Below are positions 368 to 32,089 of a stretch of 51,663 nt of DNA, in pieces. Within the stretch, counting starts at the first letter, position 1. Every line of letters starts with the position of its first letter. Below the pieces are notes generated by a model. It made no database searches, was not told where the DNA came from, and saw only the letters and a program-made list of their open reading frames with translations. Position numbers and translations under genes: made by a program. This DNA is from a virus, in the IMG/VR virus record IMGVR_UViG_3300050821_016825, positions 1 through 51,663 of that record; one strand, 5' to 3'.

Positions 368-398
368 GTCTCAGGCCAGGGCCTGGAAAAAGTGGATT

Positions 399-423
399 AA
401 AAAAGCCCGCCAGTCAGGCGGGC
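399..423 (-). terminator. Intrinsic terminator overlapping a leader ORF stop
   Basis: Perfect 7-bp stem GCCCGCC/GGCGGGC (417-423 with 405-411) with a five-base loop TGACT, followed on the minus strand by TTTTTT. The loop contains the TGA stop of the 36-codon frame that ends at 414. It separates the GH8 fibre gene from the next tail gene. Confidence 0.85.
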
Positions 424-524
424 AGAAAGCACGTCAAAGAAGACCGAGCGGGGCCGCGCGCGAACAGGTCCACCCCCTCGAAGGGGGTCTGCGGGCAGCC
501 GGGCGGCAAAACGAACGCTGTCAT
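414..524 (-). CDS. 36-aa putative leader peptide before tail gene
   Basis: Small frame beginning 3 bases after the GH8 fibre stop. Its C-terminal 24 residues (FEGVDLFARGPARSS then LTCFLPA) are clearly related to the end of the 70-residue protein at 4786-4998 (FEGVQLFARGPASAF then STCLLTA). Both frames end with L-x-A-stop, and both stops lie in the loop of an intrinsic terminator. The upstream bases ACTCTCCTGACCC are pyrimidine-rich like other starts here. Conservation of the peptide and of the stop/terminator geometry argues for a real coding unit, perhaps a leader peptide controlling read-through into the next tail gene. Function is inferred only. Confidence 0.5.
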   Translation of the reverse strand: MTAFVLPPGCPQTPFEGVDLFARGPARSSLTCFLPA

Positions 525-527
525 GGG

Positions 528-3500
528 TCAGGAGAGTTGAATCCCGCGATCGAGAAGGTCGCGGTGCGAGTCGAAGACGAGCGTGGGGCCAATGCTTTCT
601 GCCGCCGTGACGGAGTCAAAGAGAGAGAGGAACAGCGCCCGCTCCATTGCAACATTTTCCGAAGCGGCGACGGAGTCAGAGAGGGGGAGGAAAAGGGCCC
701 GCTCCAGCGCAACGGGCCCCGCCGCCGTGACGGTCTCGAAGACGGTCTGCTCGATGATCCTGAGGACCGCCACGGCCTCCCCTGCCGTCACGTTGTCCGA
801 AACGGACGTCGTGAGAACGAGCTGCGGGCTGATGAGCTCGCTGGTCGTCGCCGAATCGAAGACCGAGACGGAGAGGTCCGTGACAATGACGATCAGGTTC
901 ATCTGGACGTTCTCCGCGGCCGTCACGCCGTCGGAGACGGAAATGCCCGGGAGCTGCGCGATGGTTGGGGTGAACTCTCCGGAGAGAAGCAGGAGGTTCA
1001 GGAGCCCCTGCGACAGGCCAAAGTAACTATTTTCACTGACCTGCGAATGGAGGTAGGTGGCGACGGACCCGGCAAATGCGGCAGTGGAAGCATCCACGGT
1101 AGCCGCGGAACCGTAGCTGCCCGCAAACGCCTGACTGGTCCCGCCGCTCGGCCCTGAAGTAACCGACCCGGACGTGCCCAGGTTGTTGACGTTGTTTCCG
1201 GAGCGGGTGATGGCGGACGTCGCCATCTTGTGCTGGTTGTTGTAGGCCTCGGTCCGTCCGTTCCAGAGGTAGTCGAGGGTGTAGCCGAAGCCCATGCGAA
1301 TGGCGTTGTAGCCGTAGTTCGCGTCACCCCAGCCCAGGGCGTCGCCCAGAGTGCCGTCGCGCTTGCACGAATCCGACACAAGGCCCGTCGAATAGACGTT
1401 GGTGAAATTGGTGGCAATGAACGTCCACAGGGCGTCGCGAACGTCATTCCAGCGGGAATGCTGCGTGTGATCGGCGAAGACCGGGAAATAGGCAAACCGA
1501 ATGTAGTCGGGGGCGACGACGTTGTCGTTGTAGTTCCAGCCGTCTCCCGCCATGATCATGTTCGGATACACCGCGAAGGCCGCGGGCGTGAACTCAAAGG
1601 CCAGGACCTGCGACGCGAGAGCGTTGCCGATGCCCAGATAATCCACGTTTCCGCTGCCGCGAAGGCGGTGCATCATGAACAGCGCCATCGTCGCGTCCAG
1701 ATCGGCGTCCGTCGCTCCGTACTGGGACGTTCCCTGCGTCCCGTCATTGTTGATGATCCAGTTCATCAGCCCTTTGGAGCCGGTCCACGAGGTGTCTCCC
1801 CAATACTGGTAGTAGGCCAGGAGGCCGTGAAAGTAGCTCAGGGCCTTGACGTCGTACACCGGGTTTGCCGGATTGGACATGTAGACCGCCGCGAGCATGC
1901 CGTAGCCGATGCCTTCGGAGACGGTCCCGTTCGGGGCGTTCGCCGCTCCGAATTGCTGGTCCGGCGCGGAAATGCGATAGGCGCCCCAGGCAATGTTGGA
2001 AATGCCGCCGCCCTGGTTCGTCAGACAGTAGGAGACGTACTTGTCCCAGTGGGCCCGCAGATAGCCGCGAATCGTCGCCTGAGACACCCCCGTCGGTGCC
2101 GCCCCATACGCGTACCAACCGTCGGCGTGCGGCGTCGGGGCCGCCACGGCGGCCCTCACTTCCGCACTGTTGCCGCTGGTCCCCCCCGCCGAGGTCGCCG
2201 TGACGACGTAGTAATAGGTCGTGCCGTTGACGACCGTGGTGTCGTCGTAAAAGGCATCGGTGATGCCGGAGGCGAGCGGAGTGTACGGCCCGCCGGGGGC
2301 CGTGCCGCGCTTCACCGTGAAGCCCGTGATGCTGGTCGGGACGGTGAAACCTCCCAGGAGCTTCGTCCGCGGGGCCGACCAGGAGACGTACGCTCGATTG
2401 GAATCGACCGGGGCCGTCACCCAGATCGGCGCATCCGGAGCGGGGGTGGTGAAGGAGCTGGTGGCGGCCTTGATGGCCACGATGAGGCCGATGCCGTTGG
2501 TATAGGCGGAACTGGAGAACGAGGCGGTCTGTGTTCCCGTGGAGAACACGACCTTGTCGGAATACGTCAGGTTCAAGTAGCCACCGACGTTCGGCTGGGT
2601 GATGGGCGTCGAATAGGGGGCCGCAATGGTATACGACGCGGCAGGGTTCGGGTCGGCATGCGCGGCAATCACCAGGTCGTATGCCTGAGCGGTGACGCCG
2701 GTCGTCCCGGTCGAGTGCGCGATGACGTAATTGCCGTCCAGGCTGCTCGCCGTGACGTCAATCTGAGCGGAATGGGCAACGTTCGAGTATTCCGCGGCGA
2801 TGGCGGAGACGTTGTCGTATTCCGCATCGACAAGCGTGATCGTGATGGTCGGGGCCGTCCCGCCGAGGCAATTGGCACAATCGAAATAGTACAAACCGAC
2901 ATTGACAGATTGAGACGAGCCGTCGATGACTTTCCGCTGCACCCAGGTGTTGCCACTGGAGTCCGTCACCGACAGCACCGACGTGGAACTGGGAGCGGAC
3001 GTCGAGATCGCGAGACTGAGATAGTCTCCGGCCGTGACGCTTTGCCCCCACACGACGGCCAGCGTATTCACGTAGGCGGCAACGCTTGTCGCGGTCGTGG
3101 TCTGAACCCGGGAAATCGTATTGCTGTCAGCCCGCAGGGAAGCGGATGGCACGTCCGCAGCAGTCAGGTTGTCCGTCACGGAGACGTCGCCCAGCTGCGT
3201 CCTTGTGAGGGCCGCCACGTCCGCGGCCGTCACGTTGTCCGCCACGAAGACGTCCCCGGGCTGCGTCCTCGTGACCGTCAGCGCTTCCGCGGCCGTCACG
3301 TTGTCCGCAACCGCTATTCCCGACAGTTGCGTGTTGGTGACGGTCGCGACGTCCGCAACGGTCAGATTGTCCGCAATGGACACGGAGTAGGACGACACGG
3401 CGGGGGTGAACCTAAACGTCGCCAGCGCCTGCGACGCCTCGAGCGCGGAGCTGTTGGTCAGCGTCCAGCCGTAGGCACCCGTCGAAGACACAATGCGGTA

Positions 3501-4772
3501 TTGAGTGGCGGCACTGGTGTAGACGTCGGACCCGGCCTGCGTCAGGAGGTTCGTCCACAAGGCGTCCCCTGTGAAGGCGGGGCTGTTCGTGGGGGCACCG
3601 ATGCCGCCGATCAGCAATTCCGTTGCCTGAGTCGTCGTCGGCGCATTGCCGGAGGCATAGGTGGTCCCTGCGATCGTGTTCGCTCCCACAACCTGGTCCA
3701 GCGAGTCGGTCGTCGGCATTCCGCCCCACTCCTGAATGATGCACGCCGAGTCGGGGAACTGCCCGCCGTTGGCCCGGAACGTGATCGTCGTGGCCGAGCC
3801 CGCGACGTTGAAGGCGTACCAGATTTGCACCTGACGTTGTGACTCCAGAATTTGCGTCTTGGCGAGGTGCCAGGTGTTGTGATCGTCGGTGACGGTGATG
3901 ACGTCATTCGCTCCGCAGACGAGAACGATGGTGAGGAAGTTGCCGACGCTCGGCGTGATGGATTTGGTGTAACTGTTGACGTACCCTCCACCGTTTCCCT
4001 GCACGGTTTGCACCAGCGTCGCCACGGGCGCCGCGGAGAGAGCCTCCCCGGCCGTCACACCGTCCGAGAGGGACACCGCCCCGAGCTGCACGGACCTGGA
4101 GACGTTCTCCGCCGCCGTGACGTTGTCTGCCACGGAGATGGTAAGTGTTGCGGATTTGAAGGTGGCAACCGCCTGGGACGCCTGGCGGGCCGAGCCGTTG
4201 GTGAGGGTCCAGTTGTACGCTCCCGTCGAGGAGACCAGTTCGTACTGCGTGGCCACGCTCGTGTAGAGATCAAATCCGTCCTGCGTGAGGAGGTTGGTGA
4301 AATTGGCATCTCCCGTGTACCCCGGACTGTTCGCGTCCGCCGCGATGCAGCCGAGGACGAGCTCGCTCGCCTGCGTCGTCGTTGCGGTGCTCCCTGAAGC
4401 GTAGGTCGTTCCGGAACTGGTGTTCGCCCCGACCGTCTTATCCAGGGGATCGGTCGTCAGGGCCCCGCTCCATTCCTGAATGATGACGGCGGAATCGGGG
4501 AACTGACCGCCATTGGCCTGGAAAGTGATCGTCGTGGACGATCCAGCCACGTTATAGGCGTACCAGATCTGCGCCTGTCGCTGCGACGTGAGGATCTGGG
4601 TCTTGGCGAGGTGCCAGGTATTGTGGTTGTCCGTGACGGTGATCGTATCCGGCGCTCCGTCGGCCAGGCAGATCGTGAGGAGGTTCCCCGCCGTCGGCGT
4701 GATCGATTTGGTGTAGCTATTGGTGTAGCCGCCGCCGTTTCCCTGCACGGTCTGGACGAGTGAGATGGACAT
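528..4772 (-). CDS. Tail fibre/depolymerase with glycoside hydrolase family 8 domain (1414 aa)
   Basis: Modular structural protein. Residues about 5-210 and 253-455 are two close copies of one module (both begin LVQTVQGNGGGY). About 458-548 holds tandem repeats of the form VADNVTAAE. A third, divergent module covers roughly 552-770, and a fibronectin type III-like domain about 778-875 (VSWSAP, TYYYVVTATSAGG). From about 880 to 1262 lies a glycoside hydrolase family 8 domain: SEGIGYGM with Glu953 (the family's proton donor), TDADLD at 1021-1026, and YNAIRMGFGYTLDYLWNG with Asp1167, where the family carries its R-x-PWR-x-DY segment. The C-terminus (1265-1414) returns to VSDNVTAAE-like repeats. 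Family 8 enzymes cleave beta-1,4 glycans (cellulose, chitosan, xylan, mixed glucans), so the likely job is capsule or biofilm-glycan degradation by the virion. The start codon lies directly after a terminator T-run. Confidence 0.9.
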   Translation of the reverse strand: MSISLVQTVQGNGGGYTNSYTKSITPTAGNLLTICLADGAPDTITVTDNHNTWHLAKTQILTSQRQAQIWYAYNVAGSSTTITFQANGGQFPDSAVIIQEWSGALTTDPLDKTVGANTSSGTTYASGSTATTTQASELVLGCIAADANSPGYTGDANFTNLLTQDGFDLYTSVATQYELVSSTGAYNWTLTNGSARQASQAVATFKSATLTISVADNVTAAENVSRSVQLGAVSLSDGVTAGEALSAAPVATLVQTVQGNGGGYVNSYTKSITPSVGNFLTIVLVCGANDVITVTDDHNTWHLAKTQILESQRQVQIWYAFNVAGSATTITFRANGGQFPDSACIIQEWGGMPTTDSLDQVVGANTIAGTTYASGNAPTTTQATELLIGGIGAPTNSPAFTGDALWTNLLTQAGSDVYTSAATQYRIVSSTGAYGWTLTNSSALEASQALATFRFTPAVSSYSVSIADNLTVADVATVTNTQLSGIAVADNVTAAEALTVTRTQPGDVFVADNVTAADVAALTRTQLGDVSVTDNLTAADVPSASLRADSNTISRVQTTTATSVAAYVNTLAVVWGQSVTAGDYLSLAISTSAPSSTSVLSVTDSSGNTWVQRKVIDGSSQSVNVGLYYFDCANCLGGTAPTITITLVDAEYDNVSAIAAEYSNVAHSAQIDVTASSLDGNYVIAHSTGTTGVTAQAYDLVIAAHADPNPAASYTIAAPYSTPITQPNVGGYLNLTYSDKVVFSTGTQTASFSSSAYTNGIGLIVAIKAATSSFTTPAPDAPIWVTAPVDSNRAYVSWSAPRTKLLGGFTVPTSITGFTVKRGTAPGGPYTPLASGITDAFYDDTTVVNGTTYYYVVTATSAGGTSGNSAEVRAAVAAPTPHADGWYAYGAAPTGVSQATIRGYLRAHWDKYVSYCLTNQGGGISNIAWGAYRISAPDQQFGAANAPNGTVSEGIGYGMLAAVYMSNPANPVYDVKALSYFHGLLAYYQYWGDTSWTGSKGLMNWIINNDGTQGTSQYGATDADLDATMALFMMHRLRGSGNVDYLGIGNALASQVLAFEFTPAAFAVYPNMIMAGDGWNYNDNVVAPDYIRFAYFPVFADHTQHSRWNDVRDALWTFIATNFTNVYSTGLVSDSCKRDGTLGDALGWGDANYGYNAIRMGFGYTLDYLWNGRTEAYNNQHKMATSAITRSGNNVNNLGTSGSVTSGPSGGTSQAFAGSYGSAATVDASTAAFAGSVATYLHSQVSENSYFGLSQGLLNLLLLSGEFTPTIAQLPGISVSDGVTAAENVQMNLIVIVTDLSVSVFDSATTSELISPQLVLTTSVSDNVTAGEAVAVLRIIEQTVFETVTAAGPVALERALFLPLSDSVAASENVAMERALFLSLFDSVTAAESIGPTLVFDSHRDLLDRGIQLS
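3130..3400 (-). repeat. Tandem VADNVTAA-coding repeat, about 70-bp period
   Basis: Four neighbouring units inside the GH8 fibre gene share GCGGCCGTCACGTTGTCCG-like DNA (plus-strand reading) at intervals of about 69-72 bases. They code for residues of the form DV-x-VADNVTAA-[ED]-x-x-ALTRTQLG. Single degenerate copies recur near 4080-4140 and 900-950 and at the C-terminal end (560-840). The repeats look like linkers or spacers between modules. Confidence 0.75.
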
Positions 4773-4794
4773 AAAAAAACCGCCGTCAGGCGGT
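4773..4794 (-). terminator. Intrinsic terminator immediately before the GH8 fibre start
   Basis: Stem ACCGCC/GGCGGT (4789-4794 with 4779-4784) with loop TGAC, followed by TTTTTT, ends one base before the fibre ATG at 4772. The loop contains the TGA stop of the 70-residue frame. Transcription of the fibre from the upstream promoter must pass this terminator. Confidence 0.85.
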
Positions 4795-4998
4795 CAGAAG
4801 GCACGTTGAAAAAGCGCTGGCAGGGCCGCGCGCGAAGAGCTGCACCCCCTCGAACAGGCGTGCGGTGAACTTGCTGGCCAGGTCGTCGTCCTTGGCCTCG
4901 GGGACGGGGCCTTTGGGCTCGTCCTTCTTTGGCGGCGGGCCGCCGGGGCCGACGCTCTTGGCCGCGATGCCGTCCGAGACGCAGACGTTCAAATCCAT
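4786..4998 (-). CDS. 70-aa small protein, candidate leader of the GH8 fibre
   Basis: Begins MDLNVCVSDGIAAKS, which resembles the VSDNVTAAE repeat of the downstream fibre. It continues with a Pro/Lys/Asp-rich stretch (GPGGPPPKKDEPKG) and ends in FEGVQLFARGPASAF plus STCLLTA, shared with the 36-residue frame at 414-524. A TAAGAT box lies exactly six bases before its ATG, so it is probably the first, leaderless, gene of the fibre transcript. Its TGA stop is in the loop of the terminator at 4773-4794. Candidate attenuator peptide or tiny structural protein; no known family recognised. Confidence 0.55.
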   Translation of the reverse strand: MDLNVCVSDGIAAKSVGPGGPPPKKDEPKGPVPEAKDDDLASKFTARLFEGVQLFARGPASAFSTCLLTA

Positions 4999-5004
4999 GC
5001 CCCC

Positions 5005-5010
5005 ATCTTA
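5005..5010 (-). promoter_or_regulatory. -10 box TAAGAT, leaderless spacing
   Basis: TGTGATAAGATGGGGGC followed by ATG. TAAGAT is six bases before the start at 4998. The TGTG(A/G)TA...ATGGG context matches the other late promoters of this genome. Confidence 0.55.
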
Positions 5011-9032: not shown

Positions 9033-9062
9033 AAAAAACCGCCCAACGATTTGGGCGGTTTT
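9033..9062 (-). terminator. Intrinsic terminator, probably bidirectional
   Basis: Stem AAACCGCCCAA/TTGGGCGGTTT with a four-base loop, flanked by A-run and T-run, so it works on either strand. On the minus strand it ends the tail transcript after the gene at 9119. Confidence 0.85.
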
Positions 9063-9643: not shown

Positions 9644-9663
9644 AGGGGAAGGGGGGGATTCCC

Positions 9664-9686
9664 GCCCAGTATACCACAGGTTGTGG
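9664..9686 (-). promoter_or_regulatory. Late promoter copy 1: CCACAACCTGTGGTATACTGGG core
   Basis: Inverted repeat CCACA-ACC-TGTGG (9674-9686) joined to extended -10 TGGTATACT. The core ACAACCTGTGGTA is shared exactly with 17721-17743 and 25450-25473. No -35 box at 17 bases. Confidence 0.7.
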
Positions 9687-12309: not shown

Positions 12310-12315
12310 ATTGTA
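12310..12315 (-). promoter_or_regulatory. Extended -10 TGGTACAAT
   Basis: TGGTACAATGGGTAGG, 22 bases before the ATG at 12287, with CCCCC in the leader. Same -10/GGG arrangement as the other late promoters. Confidence 0.5.
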
Positions 12316-17705: not shown

Positions 17706-17720
17706 GTTGTGGTGGGAACG

Positions 17721-17743
17721 CGCCCATCATACCACAGGTTGTG
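17721..17743 (-). promoter_or_regulatory. Late promoter copy 2: ACAACCTGTGGTATGATGGGCG
   Basis: CACAACCTGTG inverted repeat joined to extended -10 TGGTATGAT and GGGCG, about 20 bases before the ATG at 17705. It starts right at the stop of the tail terminator gene. Same core as 9664-9686 and 25450-25473. Confidence 0.7.
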
Positions 17744-18154
17744 TCAGAAGAACTGGAGCATGAAGGCGCTGACGAAGATTGGCAGGACCAGGGACACCCC
17801 GTAGGGGGCCTCCACCTCGCGGATGCGCTCGGCGTTGATCTCGGTGTTGTCCGCATGGCCCCCGAAGGTGAAGTCGGCGTCCAGGGCATTGAGGACCGCC
17901 TCCATCGCGTCCTCCAGGGTCGATTCGGCCACGCTCTTGTCTTCCCCGGCGAGCTTGTAGATCAAATCGATCTGGAAGTTGTAACTGCGCCACTTGTTGC
18001 GGTTGTCCTCGAGGACCTCCTTGGCGCTCAGGTAGTAGAAGCGGCAGGCGGGGTAGCCCGCGAAGGTGACCGCGTGCCCCTGCTGCACGTCGGCCAAACG
18101 ATTACTGCCTGCGGGCAACAGCGTCGAAAGCTGCGTCGAAAGATAGGACCTCAC
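17744..18154 (-). CDS. Putative tail terminator/completion protein (136 aa from GTG)
   Basis: Alpha/beta protein with RSYLSTQLSTLLPAG, YLSAKEVLEDNRNKWRSYNF, and APYGVSLVLPIFVSAFMLQF. Position between the gp10-like protein and the major tail protein is that of the tail terminator. The usual start would be GTG at 18154, but a TAGAAT box ends six bases before an in-frame ATC at 18176-18178. From there the protein would read (M)SNKTISGVRSYLSTQ, adding eight residues. Confidence 0.6.
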   Translation of the reverse strand: MRSYLSTQLSTLLPAGSNRLADVQQGHAVTFAGYPACRFYYLSAKEVLEDNRNKWRSYNFQIDLIYKLAGEDKSVAESTLEDAMEAVLNALDADFTFGGHADNTEINAERIREVEAPYGVSLVLPIFVSAFMLQFF

Positions 18155-25427: not shown

Positions 25428-25449
25428 GAGGTATTTGGGGGGACTTTCC

Positions 25450-25473
25450 CGCCCATTCTACCACAGGTTGTGG
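25450..25473 (-). promoter_or_regulatory. Late promoter copy 3: CCACAACCTGTGGTAGAATGGGCG
   Basis: Inverted repeat CCACA-ACC-TGTGG plus extended -10 TGGTAGAAT and GGGCG, 27 bases before the protease ATG. Same core as copies 1 and 2. Confidence 0.7.
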
Positions 25474-29775: not shown

Positions 29776-30022
29776 GTTGACAGAAGGAGGAAGATCGGGC
29801 ACTCTGTCCACGGCGAGGAAGCCTCGAGCCACCCCTCGCGTTTTTACATGACCACAAATATGCCGCCTCCATCGCGGCCCGCAGCGTCCGGGCCACAAGG
29901 ACGGGCTCGCTAGATCGGGCCAACTTGTCGAACTCCTCCTCGTCCCAGGAAGCAGAGCAGTCGTAGCCCCGGTATTTGCCGTCTGGGTCTTTGAAGATGG
30001 CGATGTAGTTGTCTGATGACAT
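29618..30022 (-). CDS. Small phage protein with overrun C-terminus (134 aa)
   Basis: First 60 residues (MSSDNYIAIFKDPDGKYRGY, EEEFDKLARSSEPVLVART, LRAAMEAAYLWSCK) look like a family of 60-90 residue phage proteins starting SDNY. After about residue 80 the frame runs antisense to the gene at 29485-29775 and becomes Arg/Ser-rich, so the natural stop was probably lost or the true end is earlier. Located just upstream in sequence of, and coupled to, the RtcB stop (TGATG). Confidence 0.45.
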   Translation of the reverse strand: MSSDNYIAIFKDPDGKYRGYDCSASWDEEEFDKLARSSEPVLVARTLRAAMEAAYLWSCKNARGGSRLPRRGQSARSSSFCQPTARAGTSSAESRERCPALPSAVPASRRSTPRRTSRRTSCARPRTGRTAPPP

Positions 30023-31194
30023 CAGTCTTTGTAGGGATCGAAGATGTCTTTCCCAGACATTGCCACGCCGATTGGTCGCAGCACGTGCAAAATCTTGATC
30101 GTGCCCTCATGCTCCTTGAGGACCTCAGGCAGGCGGCGGTAAGCCTGTGGGGCCTCGTCGAGATCGGACCCACGCAGGCAGACGCCCTTGTCGTGGACCC
30201 ATTTCATCATCTCGTCGTGGCGCACCAGACCGGGCTGGCGCTGCTTCTTGCTGTTCTCGTCGCGCACGAATCGGCCGCGTGCGGCGGTTCTGGACATGAT
30301 CCTTCCGGCCCCGTGGACCGTCGAGTAGAGGGACTCTTTCGATTTCTCCGACTCGACGCCCTCGATGATGACCGCGTCGTCGCCCATCGAGCCGCCGACG
30401 AACCCTCTCTGTCCGGGGAAAGCGGGCGTGGCGCCCTTGCGGACCACCCACAGGTCTTCCCCGAGGTGGTTCTCGCGCCAGGCGAAGTTGTGGTGGTTGT
30501 GGACCTCGTCGGTGATGTTGGCCTTCAGGATGTTGCGTGCAACGTGTCTGGCAACGTACTCGCGGCCCGCGTAGGCGTATCGGCCTGCGAGGTTCATGGC
30601 GCGGACGTAGGACTCTCCCAGCTCGCTCGTCTCGTCAATCAGGGTCGGGGGCACGTCCATGCCGTCCTTGCCGCCGGCGAGATGAAGGAACGCGGTAGCG
30701 GTGCCGTGGCCGAGGCCTCGGGAGCCGAAGTGAACGCCGACCCAGATCATGTCCGTCTCGTCGGCGAAGACGTCAACGTAGTGGTTGCCCGACCCGACCG
30801 TGCCGAGCTGGGCGGCCGCCTTCTGCTTGAGCGGGGCCACCACGTCAATCTTCCAGGCCTCGTCATCAAACAGTTCATGGTCGATGGGCGTGTTGTTGAC
30901 GCGGCCGACGCCGAAGGAGATCTGGGAGACGACGTCGTCCATGACGCTGTCGATCAGGGGCAGGACGTCTTTGAGCTTCGCGTCGGTCTTGCAGGCCATG
31001 TTGCCGCAGGCGATGTCGAAGCCGACCCCGGAAGGGGAGACAACGCCCTTGTAGGCCACGACGCCGCCGATGGGCATGCTGTAGCCCTTGTGACCGTCCG
31101 CGCACAGGACGGCGTGTCTGCCTTCAGGGGTGAGGCAGGTCTTGATCTGCGCGATGGTGGCGTCGTCGTGGGGACCGAAGATTTTGAGCGACAT
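30022..31194 (-). CDS. rtcB: RNA ligase RtcB (390 aa)
   Basis: RtcB joins RNA 2',3'-cyclic phosphate (3'-P) ends to 5'-OH ends with GTP and Mn2+. All family landmarks are present: DGHKGYSMPIGGV (33-45), GVGFDIACGN with Cys63, LGTVGSGNHYVDVF with His138, VHFGSRGLGH with His155, HNHHN (232-236), GATPA, and STVHGAGR with His294, the guanylylated His. In phages it would repair host-cleaved tRNAs or process RNA. It is followed on the genome by a SpoU methyltransferase gene 5 bases upstream. Length is typical of bacterial short forms. Confidence 0.92.
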   Translation of the reverse strand: MSLKIFGPHDDATIAQIKTCLTPEGRHAVLCADGHKGYSMPIGGVVAYKGVVSPSGVGFDIACGNMACKTDAKLKDVLPLIDSVMDDVVSQISFGVGRVNNTPIDHELFDDEAWKIDVVAPLKQKAAAQLGTVGSGNHYVDVFADETDMIWVGVHFGSRGLGHGTATAFLHLAGGKDGMDVPPTLIDETSELGESYVRAMNLAGRYAYAGREYVARHVARNILKANITDEVHNHHNFAWRENHLGEDLWVVRKGATPAFPGQRGFVGGSMGDDAVIIEGVESEKSKESLYSTVHGAGRIMSRTAARGRFVRDENSKKQRQPGLVRHDEMMKWVHDKGVCLRGSDLDEAPQAYRRLPEVLKEHEGTIKILHVLRPIGVAMSGKDIFDPYKD

Positions 31195-31199
31195 GGGGA

Positions 31200-31646
31200 T
31201 CAGGAAGTGATCTTGGAATGGCGGTCGAACAGGACGATGCTCCCAGCCACGGCGACGTTCATGGACCGCTCTCCGGGGAGGACGACCAGGTGGTGGCAGT
31301 GCGTGAGGGCCTTCTCGGTCAGGCCGTGGTCCTCCGCACCGAGCAGGTAGATTGCCCTGGCGGGGTGCTTGTACTCCTTGATCGTCTTGGAGCGCTCGTC
31401 CATCTCGACGCCCACCAGCACGCAGTCGTAGGGAATGGTCTTGTAGAAGTCCTCGAAGGTGTCGTGGTGGTAGAGGGGGATGTGCCGCCAGGACTCGAGG
31501 GTGTCGCTCGACTGCCGCTTGTAGCGCCTGCCGATCGTGAAGATGAACGAGGCCCCGAGGATGTTGGCCGTGCGCCACAGGGTGCCGACGTTTGTCTCCG
31601 TCTTGGTGTGTTCGATACCGATGCCGAAGAAACCGCGCGAACTCAT
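31200..31646 (-). CDS. SpoU/TrmH-type RNA 2'-O-methyltransferase (148 aa)
   Basis: SPOUT motifs in order: TETNVGTLWRTANILGA (motif 1, with N, R), IYLLGAEDHGL (motif 2), LPGERSMNVAVAGSIVLFDR (motif 3, S-x-N-V-A). The size suits the small TrmL-like type that methylates the tRNA wobble position, but the target cannot be read from sequence. Its ATG overlaps the stop of the DUF7448-like gene, and RtcB starts right after its stop, suggesting a tRNA repair/modification unit. Confidence 0.85.
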   Translation of the reverse strand: MSSRGFFGIGIEHTKTETNVGTLWRTANILGASFIFTIGRRYKRQSSDTLESWRHIPLYHHDTFEDFYKTIPYDCVLVGVEMDERSKTIKEYKHPARAIYLLGAEDHGLTEKALTHCHHLVVLPGERSMNVAVAGSIVLFDRHSKITS

Positions 31647-32089
31647 TTGGACGGGACTGGGACAGTCTCCAGGACGTCATCTGTGACTTCCGGGAACACC
31701 TCGCGATCACTTGCTGCTTCCATCCAGCCGCCGTAATAGCCGTTGGAGTAGTTGCGAAACGAGAAGACCGATGTCTGTTCGCCAAATTCGGGGTGCTCGG
31801 TAGTGATGGCGTAGCCGTACAAGGAGATGGCGCTGTCGTGGTAGTCCTTTTTCCTGTCGTCTTTCTCCTCTCCATCTCCCAGTTCCAGTTCCTTCACCGC
31901 AAGCACGGGGCCGTTCTCCAGGAGCTTCTTCGTCCCGATGAGGTCATAGAACACAGACCGAGAGCAGCAGTCGCCTTCGACCCTGAAGACGAACGGGCCG
32001 CCGTCAGTCTCGAACTTCAGGTAGTCCTCGTTTATGAAGATCCGGATGATCTTCTTGCCAACGAGCTTGTACAGATTTTCGGAAGTCAT
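31643..32089 (-). CDS. DUF7448-like phage protein (148 aa)
   Basis: Contains LVGKKIIRIFINEDYLKFET, VEGDCCSRSVFYDLIGT, SLYGYAITT, and FRNYSNGYYGGWM. The G-D-C-C-S and SNGYYGG pairs are what I recall of DUF7448. Function unknown. Start at 32089 (MTSENLYK) preferred to 32110 because TACAGT lies exactly six bases before it. Confidence 0.7.
   Translation of the reverse strand: MTSENLYKLVGKKIIRIFINEDYLKFETDGGPFVFRVEGDCCSRSVFYDLIGTKKLLENGPVLAVKELELGDGEEKDDRKKDYHDSAISLYGYAITTEHPEFGEQTSVFSFRNYSNGYYGGWMEAASDREVFPEVTDDVLETVPVPSK

Follow-up and report, generated by a model that had tools for sequence, protein, structure and literature searches.

The pyrBI attenuator of Escherichia coli senses UTP, and in the left operon of phage lambda transcription is carried through by N antitermination. 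The influence of translation on an intrinsic terminator was demonstrated for E. coli tR2, whose efficiency fell from about 90% to less than 10% when it was placed a few bp downstream of a stop codon and was restored by uncoupling translation (Li et al., PMC4824070). The same paper reports that some terminators overlap upstream genes and, citing earlier work, that pyrBI attenuation depends on transcription pausing. According to another paper, working terminators a few nucleotides past stop codons are ordinary gene ends in Bacillus-type hosts with runaway transcription (PMC7858274, citing Johnson 2020). The phage locus analysed here holds two terminators that enclose the stop codons of two small frames, and it is probably best explained as a plain intrinsic terminator that overlaps the end of a gene and was duplicated so as to flank a GH8-type tail gene, not as a new peptide-controlled switch.

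Gene order, promoter-like sites and translation starts

The window was the whole virus record, a linear DNA of 51,663 bases, with a siphovirus-type late region on its minus strand (portal, S78 protease, capsid, tape measure and SPP1-type Dit). Read along that strand, a 133-aa gene is followed by TGA-TAA-GATGGGGGC-ATG, the 70-aa frame with its terminator, a T tract abutting ATG 4772, the 1414-aa tail gene, TGA-CCC-ATG, the 36-codon frame, a second terminator and the DUF7483 gene (Table 1). The two 205-aa repeats of the 1414-aa protein were 74% identical to each other. TGA was the commonest stop codon in the window (44 of 60). Other terminator-like sites were observed between late genes at 20536-20509 and 9060-9037, and the hairpin at 9037-9060 was strong and near-perfect, with T/A tracts on either side, and possibly bidirectional. 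The phage also carried an RtcB-type RNA ligase gene (30022-31875, minus strand).

Table 1. Features of the locus, with positions in the window
Feature	Position	Strand	Evidence or remark
DUF7483 tail-type gene, cut by contig end	2..367	-	Pfam PF24299, E 6e-10
Copy 1 of the duplicated segment	398..482	-	DNA alignment with copy 2
Intrinsic terminator GCCCGCC-TGACT-GGCGGGC-T6 (copy 1)	405..423	-	7 bp, loop 5, -16.7 kcal/mol, z -5.3
36-codon frame (414-524) / trailer of the 1414-aa gene	414..527	-	In frame behind that gene's TGA
Tail gene, 1414 aa: tandem 205-aa domains, DxVTAxE repeats, Fn3-like and GH8-like domains	528..4772	-	
GH8-like (endoglucanase/chitosanase) domain within the 1414-aa tail protein	960..2114	-	phmmer 1kwf_A, E 2e-18; 1v5c_A, E 2e-11
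Copy 2 of the duplicated segment: shared C-terminal frame and terminator	4772..4854	-	DNA alignment with copy 1
Intrinsic terminator GACCGCC-TGAC-GGCGGTT-T5 (copy 2), ending at the tail-gene ATG	4778..4795	-	7 bp, loop 4, -11.7 kcal/mol, z -4.7
70-aa ORF	4786..4998	-	TGA 4788-4786 in terminator loop; atypical start context
Promoter-like TAAGATGGG, candidate transcript start just before the 70-aa ORF	5002..5010	-	TAnnHTGGG match; weak

The motif TAnnHTGGG was found at six minus-strand sites, all upstream of gene starts and three of them inside 36-nt repeats. These CACAACCTGTGGTAnnATGGGCG-type repeats, at 9651-9686, 17709-17744 and 25438-25473 on the minus strand, each precede a gene start and are probably phage promoters; the TAnnHTGGG sites at 12315, 15300 and 5010 are related to them. 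The 70-aa frame is possibly read from a leaderless transcript begun at TAAGATGGG. Between the copy 2 terminator and ATG 4772 the gap is too small for a promoter, so that the 1414-aa tail gene must be reached by read-through.

A Shine-Dalgarno signal was absent window-wide, SD-type 5-mers being found before 3 of 52 starts versus 124 of 1309 other ATGs. CCCC was observed upstream of 21 of the 52 starts versus 88 of the 1309 other ATGs, and a TTCCCCC-like tract lay at about -15 to -6 of starts, where G was depleted. The base composition around these starts suggests an unusual C-rich initiation signal in this phage. The ATG of the 36-codon frame has a C-rich context typical of this genome, ranking at the 54th percentile among true starts and at the 96th among other ATGs; the starts of the 70-aa and 1414-aa frames are without the usual C-rich signal, the latter being placed at the 15th percentile of true starts.

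A duplicated frame end with its terminator

Local DNA alignment revealed that an 84-nt segment is present twice, with a score of 86 against 30 for the best of 300 shuffles and 81% identity over 70 nt. The homology begins at the FEGV codons and extends across the stop, the hairpin and the T tract, terminators included; since the repeat covers frame and terminator together, it represents one duplicated unit and not two independent occurrences. The initial annotation had described two minus-strand frames with a common C-terminus, each ending by a TGA in the loop of an intrinsic terminator directly before a tail-gene start (367 and 4772), and this description was confirmed, with 15 of 22 C-terminal residues shared. 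Both structures are stable GC-rich hairpins followed by a U tract; that of copy 2 lies at the end of a coding frame, the 70-aa ORF being coding-like and ending in the loop. A T7 tract directly adjoins ATG 4772, 13 nt from the stop codon of copy 2, and ATG 367 lies 37 nt downstream of the copy 1 stem and 46 nt from its stop. Between the copies, one C-G pair of the stem changed to A-U, which swaps P for T in the peptide, and a G-C pair changed to G-U, both hairpins remaining strong. The wider leader showed no unusual folding (z -0.4 and -0.05), and an Rfam search gave no match.

The coding potential of the frames was assessed with a codon model built from the late genes, and scores were ranked against true-frame and wrong-frame windows. 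The 70-aa frame scored 0.50 bit per codon, at the 14.5th percentile of true-frame windows and higher than any wrong-frame window, and is probably a gene. The 36-codon frame scored -0.08 bit per codon (0.8th percentile of true-frame windows) and shares its reading frame with the 1414-aa gene, from which only TGA-CCC separates it; its status as a gene is doubtful. A likeness of the 70-aa N-terminus (VCVSDGIAAKSVGP) to the tail repeats was suggestive only, some shuffles scoring higher, and was not used as evidence.

The copies differ at 13 of 66 coding positions, and 13 randomly placed changes left a mean of 13.6 identical residues, with at least 15 retained in 1342 of 5000 trials. The observed identity therefore falls within the range of random change, and DNA duplication alone explains the conserved peptide. 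Among the first 12 shared codons, one change was non-synonymous and three were synonymous, a weak hint of peptide constraint; the limited evidence of two sequences suggests that the peptide is not under selection. Relatives were sought with peptide patterns, as the initial annotation had proposed, and these gave 0 matches in viral_contigs and 13 in genome_contigs, all unrelated and due to chance. Searches by tblastn with the 70-aa and 1414-aa proteins against phages found none, nor did a search for related loci that used the portal, the duplicated tail domain or the 1414-aa protein as query; the 133-aa neighbour matched at a single remote locus (L003), where no adjacent tail gene was recognised.

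Possible roles of the stop-in-loop terminators

As a duplicated gene end, the terminator would extend over the 3′ terminus of the 70-aa ORF, a small late gene whose stop codon falls within the hairpin loop. Duplication of the last 23 codons together with the terminator, as the alignment showed, has set direct repeats on both sides of the 1414-aa GH8-type tail gene, and the coding part of copy 1, judging from its codon usage and frame, would be a relic or a trailer behind the 1414-aa stop. The terminators may close or damp transcription between tail genes, those downstream being reached via partial read-through or phage antitermination. By analogy with the E. coli work, a ribosome that terminates at the TGA would mask the ascending arm and increase read-through, and the same ribosome would open the hairpin over the 1414-aa ribosome-binding region, coupling the 70-aa and 1414-aa genes as a by-product of the layout and not as a dedicated sensor. 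Both effects, ribosome-assisted read-through and translational coupling, are likely side effects of the terminators. Depending on the host, terminators beside the stop codon may be either suppressed by ribosomes or working. By reasoning, GC-rich stems hold stop codons poorly, which leaves the loop as the likeliest place for a frame that enters such a hairpin to end. The position of the stop codon can thus be a simple geometric result, and the duplication of gene ends can leave tail genes flanked by substrates for recombination.

The initial annotation had read the two frames as leaders that act on the terminators. In such a dedicated attenuator, ribosomes translating the small frame as far as its stop would block the terminator so that RNA polymerase enters the tail gene, and an untranslated or stalled leader would keep the gene off. 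The blocking itself is physically sound, an E. coli terminator (tR2, PMC4824070) being suppressed by a ribosome at a nearby stop codon, and read-through is required here; we regard the dedicated attenuator as unlikely. It would account for the stop in the loop of both copies and for the lack of promoter space before ATG 4772, and the start context of the 36-codon ATG is one that could be translated; the promoter-like site before the 70-aa frame fits a leader and a separate gene equally. However, the claim of two selected peptides did not hold, as the peptide is no more conserved than under random change and the copy 1 frame, whose codon usage is poor and non-coding-like, trails an upstream gene. 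A single duplication event, the lack of relatives in the searches, the unremarkable folding of the wider leader and the occurrence of the layout in lambda also speak against it. Relative to pyrBI, a leader frame overlapping a terminator upstream of the controlled gene was found at copy 2, copy 1 being a trailer, and selection on leader peptide or regulatory codons was not found in the 15/22 identity; a dedicated attenuator is conceivable at copy 2 only. Such leader control, if true, would tie phage fibre expression to translation, an arrangement not found described in the literature searched. It is also improbable that the hairpin serves as a translational coupler, hiding the 1414-aa ribosome-binding region until it is opened by ribosomes that stop at the TGA and then start again at ATG 4772. 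The hairpin does occupy the region just upstream of this ATG, whose context is atypical, and stop and start are close together; but a coupler leaves unexplained both the U7 tract and copy 1, where the next ATG is distant.

The shared peptide has also been considered as a nascent-peptide signal, FEGVxLFARGPA, in which a ribosome pausing on RGP, some 26 nt upstream of the hairpin, would leave the terminator free and one reaching the TGA would block it, the repeats also letting recombination delete or multiply the tail cassette. This proposal is very unlikely; if true, tail-fibre transcription would report the state of translation. An extremely improbable alternative is UGA read-through of the 1414-aa gene, which would extend a small share of the tail proteins by a 37-residue trailer. 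The trailer is in frame and has a C-terminus in common with the 70-aa ORF, but its codon usage is non-coding-like; stop-codon recoding was rejected, the window being without a tRNA gene and TGA being the normal stop.

Comparison with described systems

The locus resembles the E. coli pyrBI attenuator in that a leader frame enters an intrinsic terminator and a nearby ribosome would lead to read-through; unlike pyrBI, which relies on pausing, no sensor or pause signal was shown here. With gene-end terminators that follow or overlap stop codons (Li 2015; Johnson 2020) it shares the overlap of stop and terminator, and differs in the duplication and in the next start codon abutting the T tract. A base-rate scan applying one terminator definition to six annotated phage genomes gave 68 terminator-like sites in all, the window included. 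In these six phage genomes, two annotated genes ended inside a hairpin loop, lambda lambdap35 and gene 24 of P12026; the scan used ORFs of at least 60 residues, and lambdap35 (55 aa) was assigned manually with the help of the annotation. In the same scan, lambda rexB ended at a hairpin base, and terminator-like sites also separated structural or tail genes of lambda (D from E, J from lom, lom from orf-401). Lambda lambdap35 (29285-29118, minus strand) is present in a single copy and is followed by xis, not by a tail gene. Like the frames described here, it is a small ORF with its TGA in the loop of AAGCCGCC-TGAT-GGCGGTTTTTT (GCCGCC-TGAT-GGCGG-T6), and this terminator, which precedes xis by about 30 nt, is almost identical to those of the present locus in sequence and layout.
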